The notes beneath the pieces are model-generated. The model searched no databases. It saw only the letters and a program-made list of their open reading frames with translations, and was not told where the DNA came from. A stretch of DNA of 47,510 nucleotides from an uncultured Granulosicoccaceae bacterium (GTDB lineage: Bacteria; Pseudomonadota; Gammaproteobacteria; Granulosicoccales; Granulosicoccaceae), in assembly GCA_938003855.1 (NCBI GenBank), contig CALKXD010000070.1, positions 1 to 47,510 on the forward strand, given 5' to 3'. The position numbers were made by a program, and so were the translations under genes. Shown here in pieces: positions 11,263-27,056 of this stretch; the stretch's first letter is position 1, and every line of letters starts with the position of its first letter.

Positions 11263-12825
11263 TTACGGCTTGCCGTTAAACCGGGGCTGCGCCCTGAATT
11301 CAACACGACGATTCTGTTTTTTACCAAACTCGGTTTGATTGTTGGCAATATGCGACGACTCGCCAAGACCGAGAGCCCTGAGTCGATTCTCTTCGATACC
11401 ACTGAAACGCAGATATTCACTGACCGACGAGGCCCGCCGCAAACTCAACTCACGGTTTTCGTCATCAGAGCCGGTATCGTCAGTATGCCCGCTGATATCC
11501 ACAACCGGCCGCTGGTATCGGTTCATCGCGTCGACAATTTTATCCAGTGTTTGCTTGGCCACAAAATCGAGCTCGTCATCAGCAGAATCAAACACCACCG
11601 TCTCGCGAATCTCGTTGGTCAGCGCGTCTATCTCTTTCTGCAGCATTGCCACTTCACGCTCCAGAGAAATCTGCCGGGACTGTATTTCTCCACCCACCGT
11701 CAGCCCCAGAAGCTCGGCTTGACGTCGAAGTCCAACCAGTGTGGCAGAGTCCTCTTCGTACTCCAGCAAAGCATCAACACGCAATTCCGAATTGCCCAGC
11801 CTCACATCGGCCTCGATGATATTGGGAAAATCGGCGATCATCGCCGCGATCAGCCGCACACGCTGATCGGCAACCCCGGCCCCGTCAACTGCGCTCGCCA
11901 CAATGATCTGGTCGCTGACACTATCGGCACCGACGACCACCGCCGCCGCATCGACCAGCAGTGCTTTTTGCGAATCACTCAGGACAATGCCGGACAGGCT
12001 GATGCGCCCGCTGTCGTAACCGACATCAACTTCCAGAACACCACCCGGTGTGCTCTTTCTAGCGATAATATCGCCACTGATAACCAGCCCTAGATCACCG
12101 GCAACACCTCGACGTCGCAGTAGATCGTCAACATCGTTTTCATCGGATACAGTGGCACTGAAGCGGAAATCAGTCGCAGACAGCGCAGCGTCTGCGTCAA
12201 CGGCATGGTCCAGGCCCGCAATAGAATTTGCCAACGACTCGACCCGTTCATCGGAGCCCGGTATCGACTCACCGAGGCCCGACACCTTGAGTTGATCAAC
12301 AAAGCTATCACCCACCGCATTTCTGGCCGCCTCTCTGAGTCGATCACGCTGCTGACGGCTCAGCACAGTGCCGGTCAAAAACACCACGCCTTCCTGCAAC
12401 CTGACTGCAACATCGACAGTCCCGGTGGCCGGCGTTGTGGCCGGGTCCGGCTCGGGCTCGGTGGTCAGCAGCGACAGCTGACGGATGCCCCCCTGGTCGA
12501 CCGAGCGCAACAGCTCTCTGAGACGCGCGTTGCTCACTCCGACCGGAAGCTCTCCAGCCACCGTCAGATCACGATACTTCCAGGTCAGACTCAGCCCACT
12601 GGCATCGATGTCGTTAGCCAGCAGTGCCGCACGAGCCTGATCATCAAGGCGCTGCTGGAAATGCTGAGTGCCCCACTTGACAGTGACCACCGCAATTACA
12701 GACACCATCACCAATGCCAGCGCAGCAGTCGCCGCGGCCGGCCAAGGCCAGCGCTGCGCCTTGTCTGGTGCGACCAGTGTTTTTTTTGCAGAGGCTGTCG
12801 GGCGCTGCTGTGAGTTAACTGCCAT
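11263..12825 (-). CDS. OmpA-family protein with BON-like repeats and an N-terminal membrane anchor
   Basis: A 520-residue protein: cytoplasmic N-tail, one membrane helix (about residues 28-50), three or so alpha/beta modules with the BON-like pattern of a short strand then V-x-L-x-G (VVFLTGTVLSRQQRDRL, RISLSGIVLSDSQ), and a C-terminal OmpA domain. That domain shows VVFDSADDELD, DISGHTDDTGSDDENRELS and KQNRRVEF. The layout recalls mycobacterial OmpATb/ArfA, which also joins an N-terminal helix, BON repeats and an OmpA domain. It likely spans from inner membrane to peptidoglycan. A candidate promoter at 13076-13104 overlaps an operator-like site. Confidence 0.82.
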   Translation of the reverse strand: MAVNSQQRPTASAKKTLVAPDKAQRWPWPAAATAALALVMVSVIAVVTVKWGTQHFQQRLDDQARAALLANDIDASGLSLTWKYRDLTVAGELPVGVSNARLRELLRSVDQGGIRQLSLLTTEPEPDPATTPATGTVDVAVRLQEGVVFLTGTVLSRQQRDRLREAARNAVGDSFVDQLKVSGLGESIPGSDERVESLANSIAGLDHAVDADAALSATDFRFSATVSDENDVDDLLRRRGVAGDLGLVISGDIIARKSTPGGVLEVDVGYDSGRISLSGIVLSDSQKALLVDAAAVVVGADSVSDQIIVASAVDGAGVADQRVRLIAAMIADFPNIIEADVRLGNSELRVDALLEYEEDSATLVGLRRQAELLGLTVGGEIQSRQISLEREVAMLQKEIDALTNEIRETVVFDSADDELDFVAKQTLDKIVDAMNRYQRPVVDISGHTDDTGSDDENRELSLRRASSVSEYLRFSGIEENRLRALGLGESSHIANNQTEFGKKQNRRVEFRAQPRFNGKP

Positions 12826-13073: not shown

Positions 13074-13091
13074 ATAGTGTAATGACACTAT
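13074..13091. promoter_or_regulatory. Operator-like site A (TGTAATGACA core)
   Basis: ATAGTGT and ACACTAT form 7-bp inverted arms around AATG. The core differs by one base from sites B and C at 13314 and 13341. It covers the -10 and part of the spacer of the minus-strand promoter that would drive the OmpA/BON gene. Confidence 0.55.
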
Positions 13092-13104
13092 TTTACATTG
13101 CCAA
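13076..13104 (-). promoter_or_regulatory. Candidate promoter for the OmpA/BON operon
   Basis: On the minus strand TTGGCA (13104-13099), a 17-base spacer, then TACACT (13081-13076). The leader to ATG 12825 would be about 240 bases. The hexamers match 5/6 and 4/6 of the sigma-70 consensus. Confidence 0.45.
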
Positions 13105-13312
13105 ACGGTAAAAGCCCCTGTCTTGCAATAAAATCTTTTATCAGGTCGCGATTCGACCAACCACCGGGCCGACTGACCCCCGATCGTCCTTGTTCTGATC
13201 ACCGGTGGCACACAGTACAACGTCTCGCCGAAGAACACGTTCCCGGGCCGCACATTAGAATCGCTCTCGTCGGTCGGTGTTATCAATCTTTGTTAAATTT
13301 ACTCCAGATTTT

Positions 13313-13341
13313 TTGTCATGACACGTTAATTGCACTATAGT
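13313..13341 (+). promoter_or_regulatory. Candidate sigma-70 promoter of the 25-residue peptide
   Basis: TTGTCA at 13313-13318, exactly 17 bases, then TATAGT at 13336-13341. Transcription would start near 13348, about 39 bases before the ATG. Both ends are covered by identical TGTCATGACA palindromes. Confidence 0.65.
13314..13323. promoter_or_regulatory. Operator-like site B, perfect palindrome TGTCATGACA
   Basis: A perfect 10-bp palindrome overlapping the -35 element of the plus-strand promoter. A repressor here would block RNA polymerase binding. Confidence 0.6.
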
Positions 13342-13350
13342 GTCATGACA
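13341..13350. promoter_or_regulatory. Operator-like site C, perfect palindrome TGTCATGACA
   Basis: An exact copy of site B, 27 bases downstream, starting on the last base of the -10 and covering the predicted start point. Paired operators at -35 and +1 are typical of repressed promoters. Confidence 0.6.
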
Positions 13351-13386
13351 ATTTATTAGTTAACTCACCAACTTAAGGACTCACCT

Positions 13387-13464
13387 ATGATCGCCTGCCT
13401 CTTTATTGCATTTTTCTTCTACGTGCTGCGTTCACCAGCTCACGACATTATGGATCAGGCGTAG
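13387..13464 (+). CDS. 25-residue hydrophobic small membrane peptide
   Basis: ATG 13387 to TAG 13462-13464. The peptide starts MIACLFIAFFFYVL, a membrane-spanning or membrane-surface segment, followed by a short polar tail. AAGGA lies seven bases before the ATG and a well-formed promoter with two operator-like palindromes lies just upstream, which is why I regard it as real despite its size. It could be a small membrane protein or a leader peptide. The barrel gene 270 bases downstream has its own candidate promoter. No family recognised. Confidence 0.55.
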   Translation: MIACLFIAFFFYVLRSPAHDIMDQA

Positions 13465-13737: not shown

Positions 13738-14310
13738 GTGTCCCGATCAACACCAGTGTCAATTGCTGCAGCCATCTGCGGCGCACTTGCCTGCACATCC
13801 GCCCACAGCGCGGACGGCATCTTTTCCAAAGGACCCAGTGTCTTTAACTACAACTACGTCGAAGCCAAGTTTCTTGATTTCGACGGCGCAGACGGACTGG
13901 CGTTTACCGGTTCTGCAGATATCAAAAAAAATATCGCACTGAATGTCGAGTACGCAAAGCTCAGTGACGGACCCGCCGATCTCGATGTGCTTGCCTTTGG
14001 CGCAACTTTTTACAAACAATCGGTACGCTACCCTCAAGCGGACTACCTTCTGGCCGCCGGGCTGGAGCGCTTTTCCGGCAACGGCTCATCAAGCGATACC
14101 GGAATATATCTGAGTGCTGGCACCCGCTATGCCCTGAATGACGCCATGGAAATCAACGGCGCATTGCAACTGTCAACCACTGGCGATACCGATATCAGTG
14201 TCCATCTAGCCGCCTTGTACGAAGTTTCACCGGGGTTTTCCGGTCTCGTCGAAACCGATATCGGTGACGGCAATTCATTCGGTCTTGGTGTGCGCTTTTA
14301 CTGGCGCTAG
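13738..14310 (+). CDS. Small outer-membrane beta-barrel protein
   Basis: From the GTG at 13738 the product is 190 residues: a signal peptide (cleavage likely after TSAHSA), then about eight amphipathic strands separated by short Asp/Gly turns, ending in GLGVRFYWR. The shape resembles small 8-stranded porin-like or OmpW/attachment-type barrels, but no family motif is certain. Repeated features are YNYVEAKFLDFDG near the mature N-terminus and alternating residues such as LSAGTRYAL. It follows the 25-residue peptide gene and may share some of its transcripts. Confidence 0.65.
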   Translation: MSRSTPVSIAAAICGALACTSAHSADGIFSKGPSVFNYNYVEAKFLDFDGADGLAFTGSADIKKNIALNVEYAKLSDGPADLDVLAFGATFYKQSVRYPQADYLLAAGLERFSGNGSSSDTGIYLSAGTRYALNDAMEINGALQLSTTGDTDISVHLAALYEVSPGFSGLVETDIGDGNSFGLGVRFYWR

Positions 14311-14605: not shown

Positions 14606-16330
14606 ATGCGAACCTATTGCCACATTGATCTCGCCAATCAGTCTGTAAAAAAACAAGAGATGCATGGCGAAGAAATCATCAGCGCCGGTCGTCATTTTAT
14701 CGCCAAATCACTGCTCGAACTTGGCGCCGCAACAGTCGATCCGCTATCCCCGGAAAACCCGCTGATATTCTCGGCCGGGCCATTCGCCGGTACCAATTTC
14801 TCCAATGCAAATCGCACCAGTGTCGGTTGCAAAAGCCCACTGACCGGCGGTATCAAAGAGTCAAATTCCGGCGGTACTTTCAGCTTCGCGCTGGGCCAGC
14901 TGGAACTGGCCGGTTTCACCTTGTACAACTGCTCCGACGACTGGGTAATCATCCATTTCTGTAAGGACGGCAGCATTAACTTTGAGTCTGCAGACCCGTA
15001 TATGGGTATGGGTAATTTCGAAACCGCGGCAAAGCTGCATGAGAAATACGGCAAAAAAGTCAGTATCGGTCTGTGCGGACCCGTCGGTGAATACCAAGGA
15101 CTGCTGGCTGGCATCGCATTCAGTGATATAGATCTGCGTCCGTCGCGACTCAGCGCGCGCGGGGGTGTCGGCGCGGTCATGGGCAACAAAAAGGTCAAGG
15201 CAGTGATCGTCGACCTGCACAAAATGCCACAATTTCACGAGCGCAAAAAGCTGATGGGCGCGGTCCGCGAGTACAACAAAATGCTCAAAGCTGAACCGGC
15301 TATTGATAACTTTGCCAACACCGGCACCGCCATGATGTCTGATGTTATCAACCAGCTGGGTGGTATCCCGGTACGAAATTTCACCGCCGGTGCAGCCGTC
15401 GAAACCGGTGAGGAATTCAAACTCAGCGGTGATTACCTGCGCGAGCAAAATATCGAGCGCGGTGGCGAAACCACGCACGCCTGTATGCCCGGCTGTCTGA
15501 TTCAATGCAGCAATGTGTATGCGGACGCAGACGGCAACGAGGTGGTATCCCCCATCGAGTACGAAACTATCGGTCTGCTCGGCACCAACTGCGGCATTAG
15601 CGAGCCCGACGATCTGGCCAGAATCAACTGGCTTGCCAACGACCTCGGGGTAGATACCATCGAACTCGGCGGAACGCTCGGTGTGTTGATGGACGCCACC
15701 GACGCCGAATTCGGCGATGTCCCCTTTATGGAAAATATTATCGACGTCGAACTCCGCCAGGGCACCGAACACGGCAGGCTGCTGGCACAAGGCGCGGCAC
15801 GCGTCGGCGAACACTACAAACTGCACCGTGTACCAGTCATTAAAAAGCAAACCATCAGCGCTTATGACCCACGGGTGATTGAAGTCACCGGCATAACCAT
15901 GATGATGACCGCACAAGGTGCGGATCACACCGCCGGTAACCTGCCCACCTATGAGTCACAAGGCAAAGACGCCGAAGAACTGGTACACGCCAGTCTCGAA
16001 ATGCAGGCGCTGTGCGCGTCTACGGATTCACTCGGCCTGTGTATTTTCGGGCGCTCAGTCACCAATGTGCAAACTGAGTTCATGGTCAACGCACTGAACG
16101 ATGCACACGGCACAGCACTGACCGGTGATTTTTTCAGACAGCTGGGTGTCGACACACTGCGCTATGAAAATGAGTTCAACGATCTGGCCGGATTTAATAC
16201 CGACGACGATGAACTACCAGAGTTTTTCTACCGGGAGGCACTGGCACCAACCAATAAGCAGGCGCGTTTTCACGCCGCCGAGGTGAAAAACTCGGCCAAC
16301 AGCTGGTGGCAGCAAAATCCACCTGCCTGA
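14606..16330 (+). CDS. Aldehyde:ferredoxin oxidoreductase-family tungsto/molybdoenzyme
   Basis: A 574-residue member of the AOR family, which uses a tungsten- or molybdenum-bis-pterin and one [4Fe-4S] cluster. The N-terminal pterin domain has GPFAGTNFSNANR and SARGGVGAVMGNKKVKAV. Three cluster Cys lie in ACMPGCLIQCSN (about residues 292-303), the CxxxCxxxC variant, and the fourth in DSLGLCIF (about 477). The ATG at 14606 is preferred to the TTG at 14582 since family members begin near this point. No partner ferredoxin subunit or cofactor-synthesis gene is adjacent. The substrate is unknown; aldehyde oxidation is a family-based guess. Confidence 0.88.
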   Translation: MRTYCHIDLANQSVKKQEMHGEEIISAGRHFIAKSLLELGAATVDPLSPENPLIFSAGPFAGTNFSNANRTSVGCKSPLTGGIKESNSGGTFSFALGQLELAGFTLYNCSDDWVIIHFCKDGSINFESADPYMGMGNFETAAKLHEKYGKKVSIGLCGPVGEYQGLLAGIAFSDIDLRPSRLSARGGVGAVMGNKKVKAVIVDLHKMPQFHERKKLMGAVREYNKMLKAEPAIDNFANTGTAMMSDVINQLGGIPVRNFTAGAAVETGEEFKLSGDYLREQNIERGGETTHACMPGCLIQCSNVYADADGNEVVSPIEYETIGLLGTNCGISEPDDLARINWLANDLGVDTIELGGTLGVLMDATDAEFGDVPFMENIIDVELRQGTEHGRLLAQGAARVGEHYKLHRVPVIKKQTISAYDPRVIEVTGITMMMTAQGADHTAGNLPTYESQGKDAEELVHASLEMQALCASTDSLGLCIFGRSVTNVQTEFMVNALNDAHGTALTGDFFRQLGVDTLRYENEFNDLAGFNTDDDELPEFFYREALAPTNKQARFHAAEVKNSANSWWQQNPPA

Positions 16331-19616: not shown

Positions 19617-19907
19617 CTAGCGCAGCTCTGTTTCCACAAAGACAAATTCATAGTCATTCGCATTGACCACATTGTGCTCAACCCCCTCCCCTTTGTAGTA
19701 GGCGATGCCACTGGTGAGTTCAGCCTCGTGGTTGCCTTCTGCGGTTTCCAGTAGCAGCGTGCCACTGGTTTGCGGCACCACGACATAGTCGTACCCGTGG
19801 CGATGCCAGCCGGTTTCGCCGCCCGGAGGAAAACGCCACTCTGTGACAATCACTCGTTCGTTATCCACCTGCACGGTTGGCACGGCTTTGGGGCGATCAG
19901 TTGTCAT
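19617..19907 (-). CDS. Small single-domain cupin
   Basis: A 96-residue cupin barrel. The metal site is GGETGWHRHGYDYVVV with the HxH pair, and the second motif ends in GVEHNVVN. No activity can be assigned; such proteins act as small isomerases, dioxygenases or ligand binders. The ATG at 19907 has AAGGAG seven bases upstream, so it is preferred over the start at 19925. It converges on the thioesterase gene and diverges from the aminotransferase gene. Confidence 0.8.
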   Translation of the reverse strand: MTTDRPKAVPTVQVDNERVIVTEWRFPPGGETGWHRHGYDYVVVPQTSGTLLLETAEGNHEAELTSGIAYYKGEGVEHNVVNANDYEFVFVETELR

Positions 19908-20073
19908 AACAGAACTCCTTGGCAATCAATAAATAGTGCGCATCAGTCAAACTTACGCCCTCGATGAAGCCGCCACCGACGAGCTGAGCAGTTTGCGTTG
20001 AAAAACGCTACCAGAAAGTCCCGCTGGGCGCACCGCAGGTTTACAATACCAAAACGATACTCAGGAGGCCTCC

Positions 20074-21483
20074 ATGACACCAGTTAACAATAAAGCGAGT
20101 AACTACGCAAAAGATATCTGGCAAAAGGATAAAGACCATCATTTGCATCCCTGGCAACTGTTCGACAGCTTCGGCACCGAAGGCGCTCTGGTGATGGACA
20201 AAGCATCTGGAGCACAAATGTATGACCTCCACGGACACGAGTATCTCGACTCGATCGGTGGTTTATGGTGCACCAATATTGGTCAGGGCCGCGAGGAAAT
20301 GATCGAGGCGGTGGCGGATCAAATGCGGCAAATGGCCTATGCTAGCCCGTTTGTCGATATGACTAATGCACCCGCTGCACTGCTTGCAGCGAAACTCGCC
20401 GAGCTCGCCCCCGGATCACTCAACCACGTGATGTTCAGCTGTGGCGGGTCCACCGCCATAGATTCAGCTTATCGTTTGATTCAGTTCTACCAGAACTGTC
20501 GCGGCAAGCCGCAAAAAAAACACATCATCGCACGTGATGCGTCCTACCACGGCACCACTTATATTGCGATGTCAATCGGTGGCAAAAAAGCAGATCACCC
20601 GCCCGAATTCGACTACAAACGCGACACCATCCATCATGTCTCAAGCCCCAACTACTACCGTGCCGCCCCCGACCTGACCGAATCACAGTTCCTCGATTTT
20701 CTGATTGACGAACTGGAAGAAAAAATTCAGTCCATTGGTGCTGACAACGTAGCGGCATTTTTTGCCGAGCCCATCCTTGGTGCAGGCGGCGTTGTGGTAC
20801 CACCGACCGGCTATCACAAACGCACGTTTGATCTCTGCCGGCGTCACGATATCCTGTATGTCTCCGATGAAGTCGTCACCGCATTCGGGCGGCTTGGCCA
20901 CTGGTTCGCCTCCGATGACGTGTTTGATATCCAGCCCGATATCATCACCTGCGCCAAGGGCATTACCTCAGGCTATCTTCCGCTTGGAGCCACCATCTAC
21001 TCCGATGAAATTCACAACGTTATCAGCGAGCCGGGACAAGGCCGTTACTTCGCACATGGCTTTACCTACTCCGGTCATCCGGTGACCTGCGCTGCGGCTC
21101 TAAAAAACATAGAAATTATAGAGCGTGAGAATTTGCTCTCCCACGCCAGTGACATCGGCGACTACTTCCAGCAACAACTTCACACCTTAAACGATCTGCC
21201 AATCGTCGGTCAGATACGCGGCATGAAGCTGATGCAGTGTGTGGAGTTTGTTGCCAACAAAGAGACCCGTGAAGTCTTTCCCGAGGAAATTGACATCGGA
21301 AAAATTATTTCCAATATCGCCGATAAAAAAGGTTTGCTGGTACGCCCGATTATCAACCTCAATGTGATGTCGCCACCTTTGATTATTAATCGCGAGCAAG
21401 TCGACTTCATCGTTACAACGTTGCGTGAAAGTATCGAGGAAGCGATGATTCAGCTACGCCAAAGCGGCCACCTCAGCGCCTAG
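20074..21483 (+). CDS. Class III (omega) aminotransferase
   Basis: A 469-residue PLP enzyme of the class III group that moves amino groups from omega-amines or omega-amino acids to pyruvate or 2-oxoglutarate. It shows GGLWCTNIGQGR, FSCGGSTAIDSAYRL (phosphate site), SDEVVTAFGRLG (Asp to the pyridine N) and the Schiff-base Lys in TCAKGITSGYLPLGA. The N-terminal DKDHHLHPWQLF recalls taurine- and beta-alanine-type pyruvate aminotransferases, but the donor is not resolved. AGGAGG lies a few bases before ATG 20074. Its stop is 31 bases before the ThDP decarboxylase gene, so one operon and one pathway are likely. Confidence 0.9.
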   Translation: MTPVNNKASNYAKDIWQKDKDHHLHPWQLFDSFGTEGALVMDKASGAQMYDLHGHEYLDSIGGLWCTNIGQGREEMIEAVADQMRQMAYASPFVDMTNAPAALLAAKLAELAPGSLNHVMFSCGGSTAIDSAYRLIQFYQNCRGKPQKKHIIARDASYHGTTYIAMSIGGKKADHPPEFDYKRDTIHHVSSPNYYRAAPDLTESQFLDFLIDELEEKIQSIGADNVAAFFAEPILGAGGVVVPPTGYHKRTFDLCRRHDILYVSDEVVTAFGRLGHWFASDDVFDIQPDIITCAKGITSGYLPLGATIYSDEIHNVISEPGQGRYFAHGFTYSGHPVTCAAALKNIEIIERENLLSHASDIGDYFQQQLHTLNDLPIVGQIRGMKLMQCVEFVANKETREVFPEEIDIGKIISNIADKKGLLVRPIINLNVMSPPLIINREQVDFIVTTLRESIEEAMIQLRQSGHLSA

Positions 21484-25559: not shown

Positions 25560-27056
25560 CTAGCGAGGCGGACAACTTCTACCGGCTTCGCTATCCCAAC
25601 CCCAACCGTTGTTATTGGCGGCGTCGGTATAGTCACAGTGCTCATCCCCACGCGGCGGGCAGCTTTTGTTGGTTACCGAGTTCCAGCCATAACCCCCATT
25701 GCTGTCAGCGTCACTGTAGTCGCAACCCAGTGGCAAGGTTGTCGCTTCGAGCCACTCGTAGTGAAGCCCTTTCGCGGTGCGATCTGCAAAGCCGTTCCAG
25801 TAGGTATGGGTGTCGTCCTCTACGCCATCAGTGACCGAGTAGACGCCATCATTTGATGACGGGATCAGATCAAGGTAGTCAGCCGAGTCGGCATCAGCCA
25901 GCAGATATTTACCCAGCCAGGCGGTAACAAAATGCTGCGAGATATTATTCATGCGTGCGGTATCCCATACCGCATCAGCGTAGTGTTCGTAGGGATAAAA
26001 ACCCAGCGTCGCGTTAAACTCAAAGCTTTCTTTCGGTGCCGGGTACGGGGCACCGGCATTATGATTGGCATGATCAAAAGTAAGTAAGCCTCGATCAACG
26101 GCGGTTGCCCCTTCCCAGATGGCACGGGTACCCTGCTCGTATCCGGAGACATCGTCCTGTGATCCGGCGATAAACAACATCGGGATATTTATTCCGGCCA
26201 GACCCTGGGCGTCCCAGAAACCGGTATTCATTCCCCAGGGACCAAAAGCGATGGCTGTCTGTATACGCGGATCGAACAAGGCATTGTGACTATCGCTGCC
26301 CGCTCTGTGCACCCCGAGTTGCCCGTGAGCCGCGCCCCAGGGATACTCAACCGACGTTTGAGTGACACCACCACCAGCGGTAATTACCGCACCGTAGCCT
26401 CCCATCGAATAGCCGATGATCGCGGTCTTTGAGCTGTCTACCATATCACTCAGAAAATGGCTGCTGTCACCGGACAGCCGCTCCATTTCATTGAGTACAA
26501 ATAACTGGTCAAGAGAGCGGTTAACCAGCGTCGAGCCAAACGCAGCCTGTGTGCGATAGGTTGAATCGGTATGATCTATCGAGGCTACCACATAGCCTTT
26601 AGAGGCCAGATTATCCGCCAGATGGGACAATAAAAAACGGTTACCCGGATAGCCGTGTGAAATAATCACCAGTGGAAATCCGCTGTCGCCGGTGACCGTC
26701 GCGGCATCTCTGATTGCACGACCGGTCAGCATTACCTCTGTTACAGCGTCGCGCATCGTTGCTCGCAACTGATTATCACCCGTCACCGCACTATCAGCCG
26801 GATACCAGACCTCTACGGTTAGCGGCCGATCGTAGCGTGGTAACGGGTCGGGAACGGGTTGGGCATTATCCAGTTGCAGAATATCAATCTGGTTTGCATT
26901 TACCAGTTCAACAGAGCGCACCCCAACGGCATAACTGCCATAGGCGGCAAGGTCGGGAGCCCCCGGCAGCTGAGTATCAATTCGGTTGTCTGCCATCGCT
27001 ACACCTGTAACAAAAAAGACTGACAACGATAAGTATCGAATAATACGTGCGCACAT
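25560..27056 (-). CDS. Secreted alpha/beta-hydrolase with two C-terminal Cys/Trp modules
   Basis: A 498-residue exported hydrolase: signal peptide ending in GVAMA, then an alpha/beta-hydrolase domain like dienelactone hydrolases or platelet-activating-factor acetylhydrolases. It shows the oxyanion segment IISHGYPGNRF, nucleophile Ser217 in IIGYSMGGYG and a late His in FDHANHNAG. The last 60 residues are two copies of a C-x-Y-x-DA-(6-7)-GWxW-(6)-SCPPR-type unit, CDYSDADSNGGYGWNS and CDYTDAANNNGWGWDS, recalling CBM10-like carbohydrate-binding modules. The substrate is probably an ester on a polymer or lipid. ATG 27056 has GAGG upstream. Confidence 0.83.
   Translation of the reverse strand: MCARIIRYLSLSVFFVTGVAMADNRIDTQLPGAPDLAAYGSYAVGVRSVELVNANQIDILQLDNAQPVPDPLPRYDRPLTVEVWYPADSAVTGDNQLRATMRDAVTEVMLTGRAIRDAATVTGDSGFPLVIISHGYPGNRFLLSHLADNLASKGYVVASIDHTDSTYRTQAAFGSTLVNRSLDQLFVLNEMERLSGDSSHFLSDMVDSSKTAIIGYSMGGYGAVITAGGGVTQTSVEYPWGAAHGQLGVHRAGSDSHNALFDPRIQTAIAFGPWGMNTGFWDAQGLAGINIPMLFIAGSQDDVSGYEQGTRAIWEGATAVDRGLLTFDHANHNAGAPYPAPKESFEFNATLGFYPYEHYADAVWDTARMNNISQHFVTAWLGKYLLADADSADYLDLIPSSNDGVYSVTDGVEDDTHTYWNGFADRTAKGLHYEWLEATTLPLGCDYSDADSNGGYGWNSVTNKSCPPRGDEHCDYTDAANNNGWGWDSEAGRSCPPR

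Follow-up and report, generated by a model that had tools for sequence, protein, structure and literature searches.

The palindromic decamer TGTCATGACA is, with a probability of about 0.7, an operator bound by a dimeric regulatory protein, which probably acts as a repressor and controls a lineage-specific surface regulon, the promoter of a 25-residue peptide gene included. The window, i.e., the whole stretch of DNA analysed (47,510 nucleotides from an uncultured Granulosicoccaceae bacterium), contains the following features of the locus:

11263 to 12825, minus strand: OmpA/BON protein, the divergent gene (Pfam OmpA and BON; synteny in 15 genomes).
13074 to 13091, no strand: one-base variant palindrome ATAGTGTAATGACACTAT, over the minus-strand promoter-like sequence 13104-13076; its function is unsupported.
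13313 to 13341, plus strand: predicted promoter of the peptide gene, sigma-70 type, TTGTCA-17-TATAGT (promoter scan).
13314 to 13323, no strand: putative operator A, TGTCATGACA, overlapping the -35; its octamer is invariant in 14 aligned orthologous promoters.
13341 to 13350, no strand: putative operator B, TGTCATGACA, overlapping the last -10 base and the predicted start point.
13387 to 13464, plus strand: 25-residue peptide MIACLFIAFFFYVLRSPAHDIMDQA of a conserved small-protein family (orthologues, codon differences).
13738 to 14310, plus strand: small outer-membrane beta-barrel-like protein, OMP (weak Pfam OMP_b-brl match below the cut-off; synteny).
14609 to 16330, plus strand: aldehyde ferredoxin oxidoreductase, AFOR (Pfam AFOR_N and AFOR_C; conserved downstream neighbour).

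The three copies of TGT(A/C)ATGACA reported by an earlier sequence-only reading were all recovered, and they are the only sites of the pattern TGTMATGACA in the whole window, two being TGTCATGACA and one TGTAATGACA; counted as strand-matches, they amount to five against 0.11 expected, a number attained in 0 of 100 shuffles. Sites A and B are identical palindromes 27 bp apart, with the arms at 13313-13324 and 13340-13351 mutually complementary over 12 bp, and the promoter scan bore out the earlier statement that they cover the -35 and the start point; such an overlap with the -35, the -10 or the start point of a predicted sigma-70 promoter is the placement of a repressor operator. The same scan recovered the minus-strand promoter TTGGCA-17-TACACT, which had been proposed along with them, at 13104-13076, and the longer inverted arms ascribed to the variant ATAGTGTAATGACACTAT at 13074-13091 were found to be perfect over 7 bp, with TGTAATGACA contained at 13078-13087. 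A one-mismatch site, TGTCATAACA, was observed elsewhere in the window, at 19902-19911, in intergenic DNA about 167 bp upstream of an aminotransferase ORF at 20074.

Orthologues of the OmpA/BON protein, by which the loci were located, are present in 15 genomes: the 14 of the genus, among them that of the window, and G017 from a sister genus. A pair of the octamer GTCATGAC sits between OmpA/BON and the downstream genes in 15/15 loci and brackets the promoter in every one of them (14 of the window's genus and one of the sister genus). Across 14 aligned promoters both octamers are invariant and the -35, like the TA of the -10, almost so, while most other columns vary. The octamer spacing, from start to start, is 27 bp in ten loci and 24, 25, 28 or 29 bp in the others, and a third site lies 31-32 bp further upstream in four genomes.

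The variant at 13078 is absent at the orthologous loci of 14 out of 14 relatives and is, therefore, either new in this genome or a product of chance. An arrangement in which the three window sites, this one included, act together as a single switch of the two divergent operons would agree with the clustering of three copies in 277 bp of this genome and with the overlap of the 13078 copy with the minus-strand promoter-like sequence; however, its lack in all the relatives makes such a switch improbable and leaves the 13078-based link to the OmpA/BON operon unsupported. Thus, of the earlier proposal of one dimeric regulator for both operons, the part on the peptide promoter, with its conserved pair, is supported, while the joining of OmpA/BON to the unit of the peptide through 13078 is not. 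The conserved pair itself may possibly act on OmpA/BON, since it shares the intergenic region of this gene.

In 14 of the 15 loci, that is, in every locus with a long enough contig, the promoter is followed by a peptide of 24-31 residues. The peptide family has 13 invariant residues, with the pattern M..CL.(I/V)AF.F.VLR.PAHD, and its pairwise codon differences in 14 genomes are 887 synonymous against 309 non-synonymous; the frame is kept and the third codon positions are the most variable, as in a small coding gene, which indicates purifying selection on the peptide and a new conserved small-protein family. Within the bacterial family the peptide was found in the genera g1 and g5 only, and among 369 genomes of the class the window's own peptide was the sole strong match. 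Like bacterial small membrane proteins generally, it is very short, hydrophobic and provided with its own promoter, but its sequence gave no Pfam match and was found in two genera only. A second peptide copy, MSLCLLVAFIFYVLRSPAYDLML, was noticed downstream of an ammonium-transporter-like ORF (L437, G013:C12), without the operator. The gene order in the genus is peptide, OMP, AFOR; in the sister-genus genome G017 it is peptide, AFOR, with OMP not seen between them. Neither the operator nor the peptide was present within about 690-780 nt upstream at seven AFOR loci of g2, g3 and g4. Selenocysteine in three AFOR orthologues was rejected, the listed in-frame TGA being the terminal stop.

The genome-wide frequency of the decamer, which the earlier reading had named as a check, showed no more than a modest excess in the window's own genome (12 perfect decamers versus 6 of the backward control). 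In the genus, 86 of the 93 decamer sites at the fetched loci precede an ORF start by at most 350 bp, and 4 are in coding DNA. Single decamers numbered 73 versus 14 backward controls in four genomes, and octamer pairs 57 versus 2 in 14 genomes. A raw excess over the backward pattern was not accepted as evidence by itself, because genus g4 shows an excess too, inside genes. This observation is also what could favour the decamer being common functionless DNA, produced by codon bias or chance, as in the two g4 genomes it exceeds the backward control and yet 25 of 33 sites are coding; against the upstream placement in the window's genus and the retention of the pair in 15/15 orthologous loci, such an explanation keeps hardly any probability. 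It is the relatives that carry the evidence beyond chance, through this retention and the ratio of octamer pairs to controls. The gene types at the sites of G017 resemble those of the window's genus, those of G015 (genus g3) do not and its sites are mostly within genes, and operator use, therefore, appears, over the sampled genera, not to extend beyond g1 and g5.

When 67 sites were aligned by gene direction, a symmetric AT-rich flank was found on both sides, with hardly any G or C at a distance of 2-3 bp from the core; judged by these sequences, the decamer belongs, across the genus, to a symmetric operator spanning about 16-20 bp. The positions of the predicted -10 elements are clustered, and the operator sites often overlap the core promoter as a result. 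Several species have the same operator in front of related genes, as in a conserved regulon, and the site-adjacent genes encode mostly secreted proteins and lipoproteins, such as CBM10-like, CBM9/TSP3, GH12-like and cadherin-like proteins, GT87 and a capsule epimerase (Pfam names CBM_10, CBM9, GH12 (weak), TSP3, GT87, Polysacc_synt_2 and bacterial Ig/cadherin-like). Secreted-like proteins make up 76 of the 100 genes next to sites versus 46 of the 118 neighbouring genes, and the GWGW motif 35 versus 4, respectively, with the genes being mechanical ORF picks in mostly fragmentary genomes, secretion called by a crude rule (simple hydrophobicity and lipobox), and several loci per gene family being orthologous, so that the counts are not independent events. 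The envelope-type regulon imagined from the window alone was thus supported and proved larger than supposed, comprising surface and secreted genes genus-wide. A secreted hydrolase resembling PETase/PAF-acetylhydrolase, encoded on the minus strand of the window at 25560-27056, has two GWGW motifs at its C-terminus, as the regulon proteins do, but no TGTCATGACA lies upstream of its gene.

In the proposed mechanism, two regulator dimers would occupy the sites at a distance of 27 bp; one would cover the -35, the other the last part of the -10 together with the start point, and their binding would thereby block RNA polymerase. The peptide gene would be shut off, and possibly also the downstream genes for OMP and AFOR. 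With the same operator at the promoters of the genus-wide surface and secreted proteins, the peptide would be co-controlled with them, and one protein presumably binds all the sites, represses, and is released by some signal lifting the repression. Paired sites are spaced variably, from 15 to 27 bp and more, a variability that does not favour a single fixed cooperative complex. The repression reading draws on predicted promoters, and against the main reading as a whole stand the modest decamer excess in the window's own genome (12 versus 6) and the genus loci, where no operator-bearing regulator gene was seen among the listed matches. A regulator acting mainly as activator, or in a dual manner, e.g., an NtrC/FleQ-like enhancer-binding protein working by recruitment or by a change of DNA shape, is a less likely alternative: several surface-gene promoters have two or three tandem sites, and unrelated sulfur-oxidiser-like genomes have TGTCATGACA pairs by PAS-type enhancer-binding regulator-like genes, whereas at the peptide promoter, of sigma-70 type, the sites overlap -35, -10 and start point, which is classically where a repressor sits.

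The regulator gene with the same site upstream, which the sequence-only reading had suggested looking for, was not seen among the listed matches from 87 loci in the genus. When 103 neighbouring proteins were scanned against Pfam, the 25 commonest families, besides which 83 further ones matched, included neither a recurrent regulator family nor a linked enhancer-binding regulator of the NtrC/FleQ-like type. The suggestion of a FadR-type GntR protein could not be upheld, because the clear FadR examples of GT...AC have half-sites spaced by N3, e.g., TGGTAAGACCA and TTTGTGTCACAAA (PMC2018728), and the inverted repeat GT...AC shared with them is spaced by N4 here. This GT-N4-AC geometry is that of the HutC example TGGTCTATACCA (PMC2018728), and a GntR-family protein of HutC type as the reader of the sites, which we regard as doubtful, would further agree with the genome G034 of the Granulosicoccus group, where a GntR/UTRA regulator gene is preceded, at about 20 bp, by TGTCATGACA (L350:2288-2297), and with a Halomonas record, where a GntR-like gene and a transporter-like gene, in divergent orientation, are separated by three near-tandem TGTCATGACAAAGAGC-type copies (L160:3748-3789). 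However, the G034 protein, from another genus, was discarded as a candidate for having no close relative in the window's genus (best 36% identity), and the UTRA/HutC regulators of the genus, counted family-wide and examined at 22 loci as a subset of the UTRA genes, were rejected as linked, as those examined stand beside unrelated genes with no GTCATGAC in their upstream regions. DoeX of Halomonas elongata was also set aside: an oligonucleotide with TGTCATGACA was used in the assay, but specific binding was reported for another fragment, F3 (PMC3187862). A literature search for the decamer turned up no bacterial regulator among the papers listed.

Control of the FleQ type acts on exopolysaccharide and adhesin promoters through boxes with spaced half-sites. 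The sites described here share with it the surface and polysaccharide genes, the GTCA/TGAC half-sites and the location of boxes around the promoter, but their half-sites abut, and no FleQ-like gene was linked to them among the 25 commonest neighbour families. With the GntR/HutC-type operators, such as the dre-sites of NagR, which is described as repressing through operator binding (PMC4333415, PMC2018728), they have in common a palindrome with GT-N4-AC half-sites, and they differ in the core CATG, in the perfect palindromes arranged in tandem, in the large set of surface-protein genes, and in that no examined HutC-type regulator is linked to the sites in the window's genus.

This set of DNA switches has apparently not been described before; the literature found on Granulosicoccus and regulon contained, judged by title, nothing about such a regulon. 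Relatives of these bacteria were reported from macroalgal surfaces (PMC10233909, PMC12131803, PMC11879540). Tentatively, and as a possibility rather than an expectation, the surface and glucan-binding proteins of algae-associated Granulosicoccaceae might, through these sites, be under a master regulator not described so far. The new microprotein would be among the most constant targets of this regulator and might serve as a membrane-bound helper or signal, linking the locus of the aldehyde oxidoreductase with the surface programme. The putative operator offers a direct handle, by which the regulator of many adhesion and carbohydrate-binding proteins could be reached through one short DNA, and the peptide adds a small-protein family backed by selection in 14 genomes.

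Further occurrences were met outside these genera. In one Coriobacteriaceae MAG, a 37-bp pair recurs on several contigs (L148, L159, L177, L191, L203, L204), and at L148 it lies in the tandem repeat TTGGGGACTGTCCCCTTTGTCATGACA, so that some genome-wide matches are no operators. Pairs of TGTCATGACA were also observed at L143, L145, L151, L158, L182 and L216 beside other gene types, which, named by eye, are FAD-dependent sulfide oxidoreductase-like, CRP/FNR-like or PAS-type enhancer-binding regulator-like.
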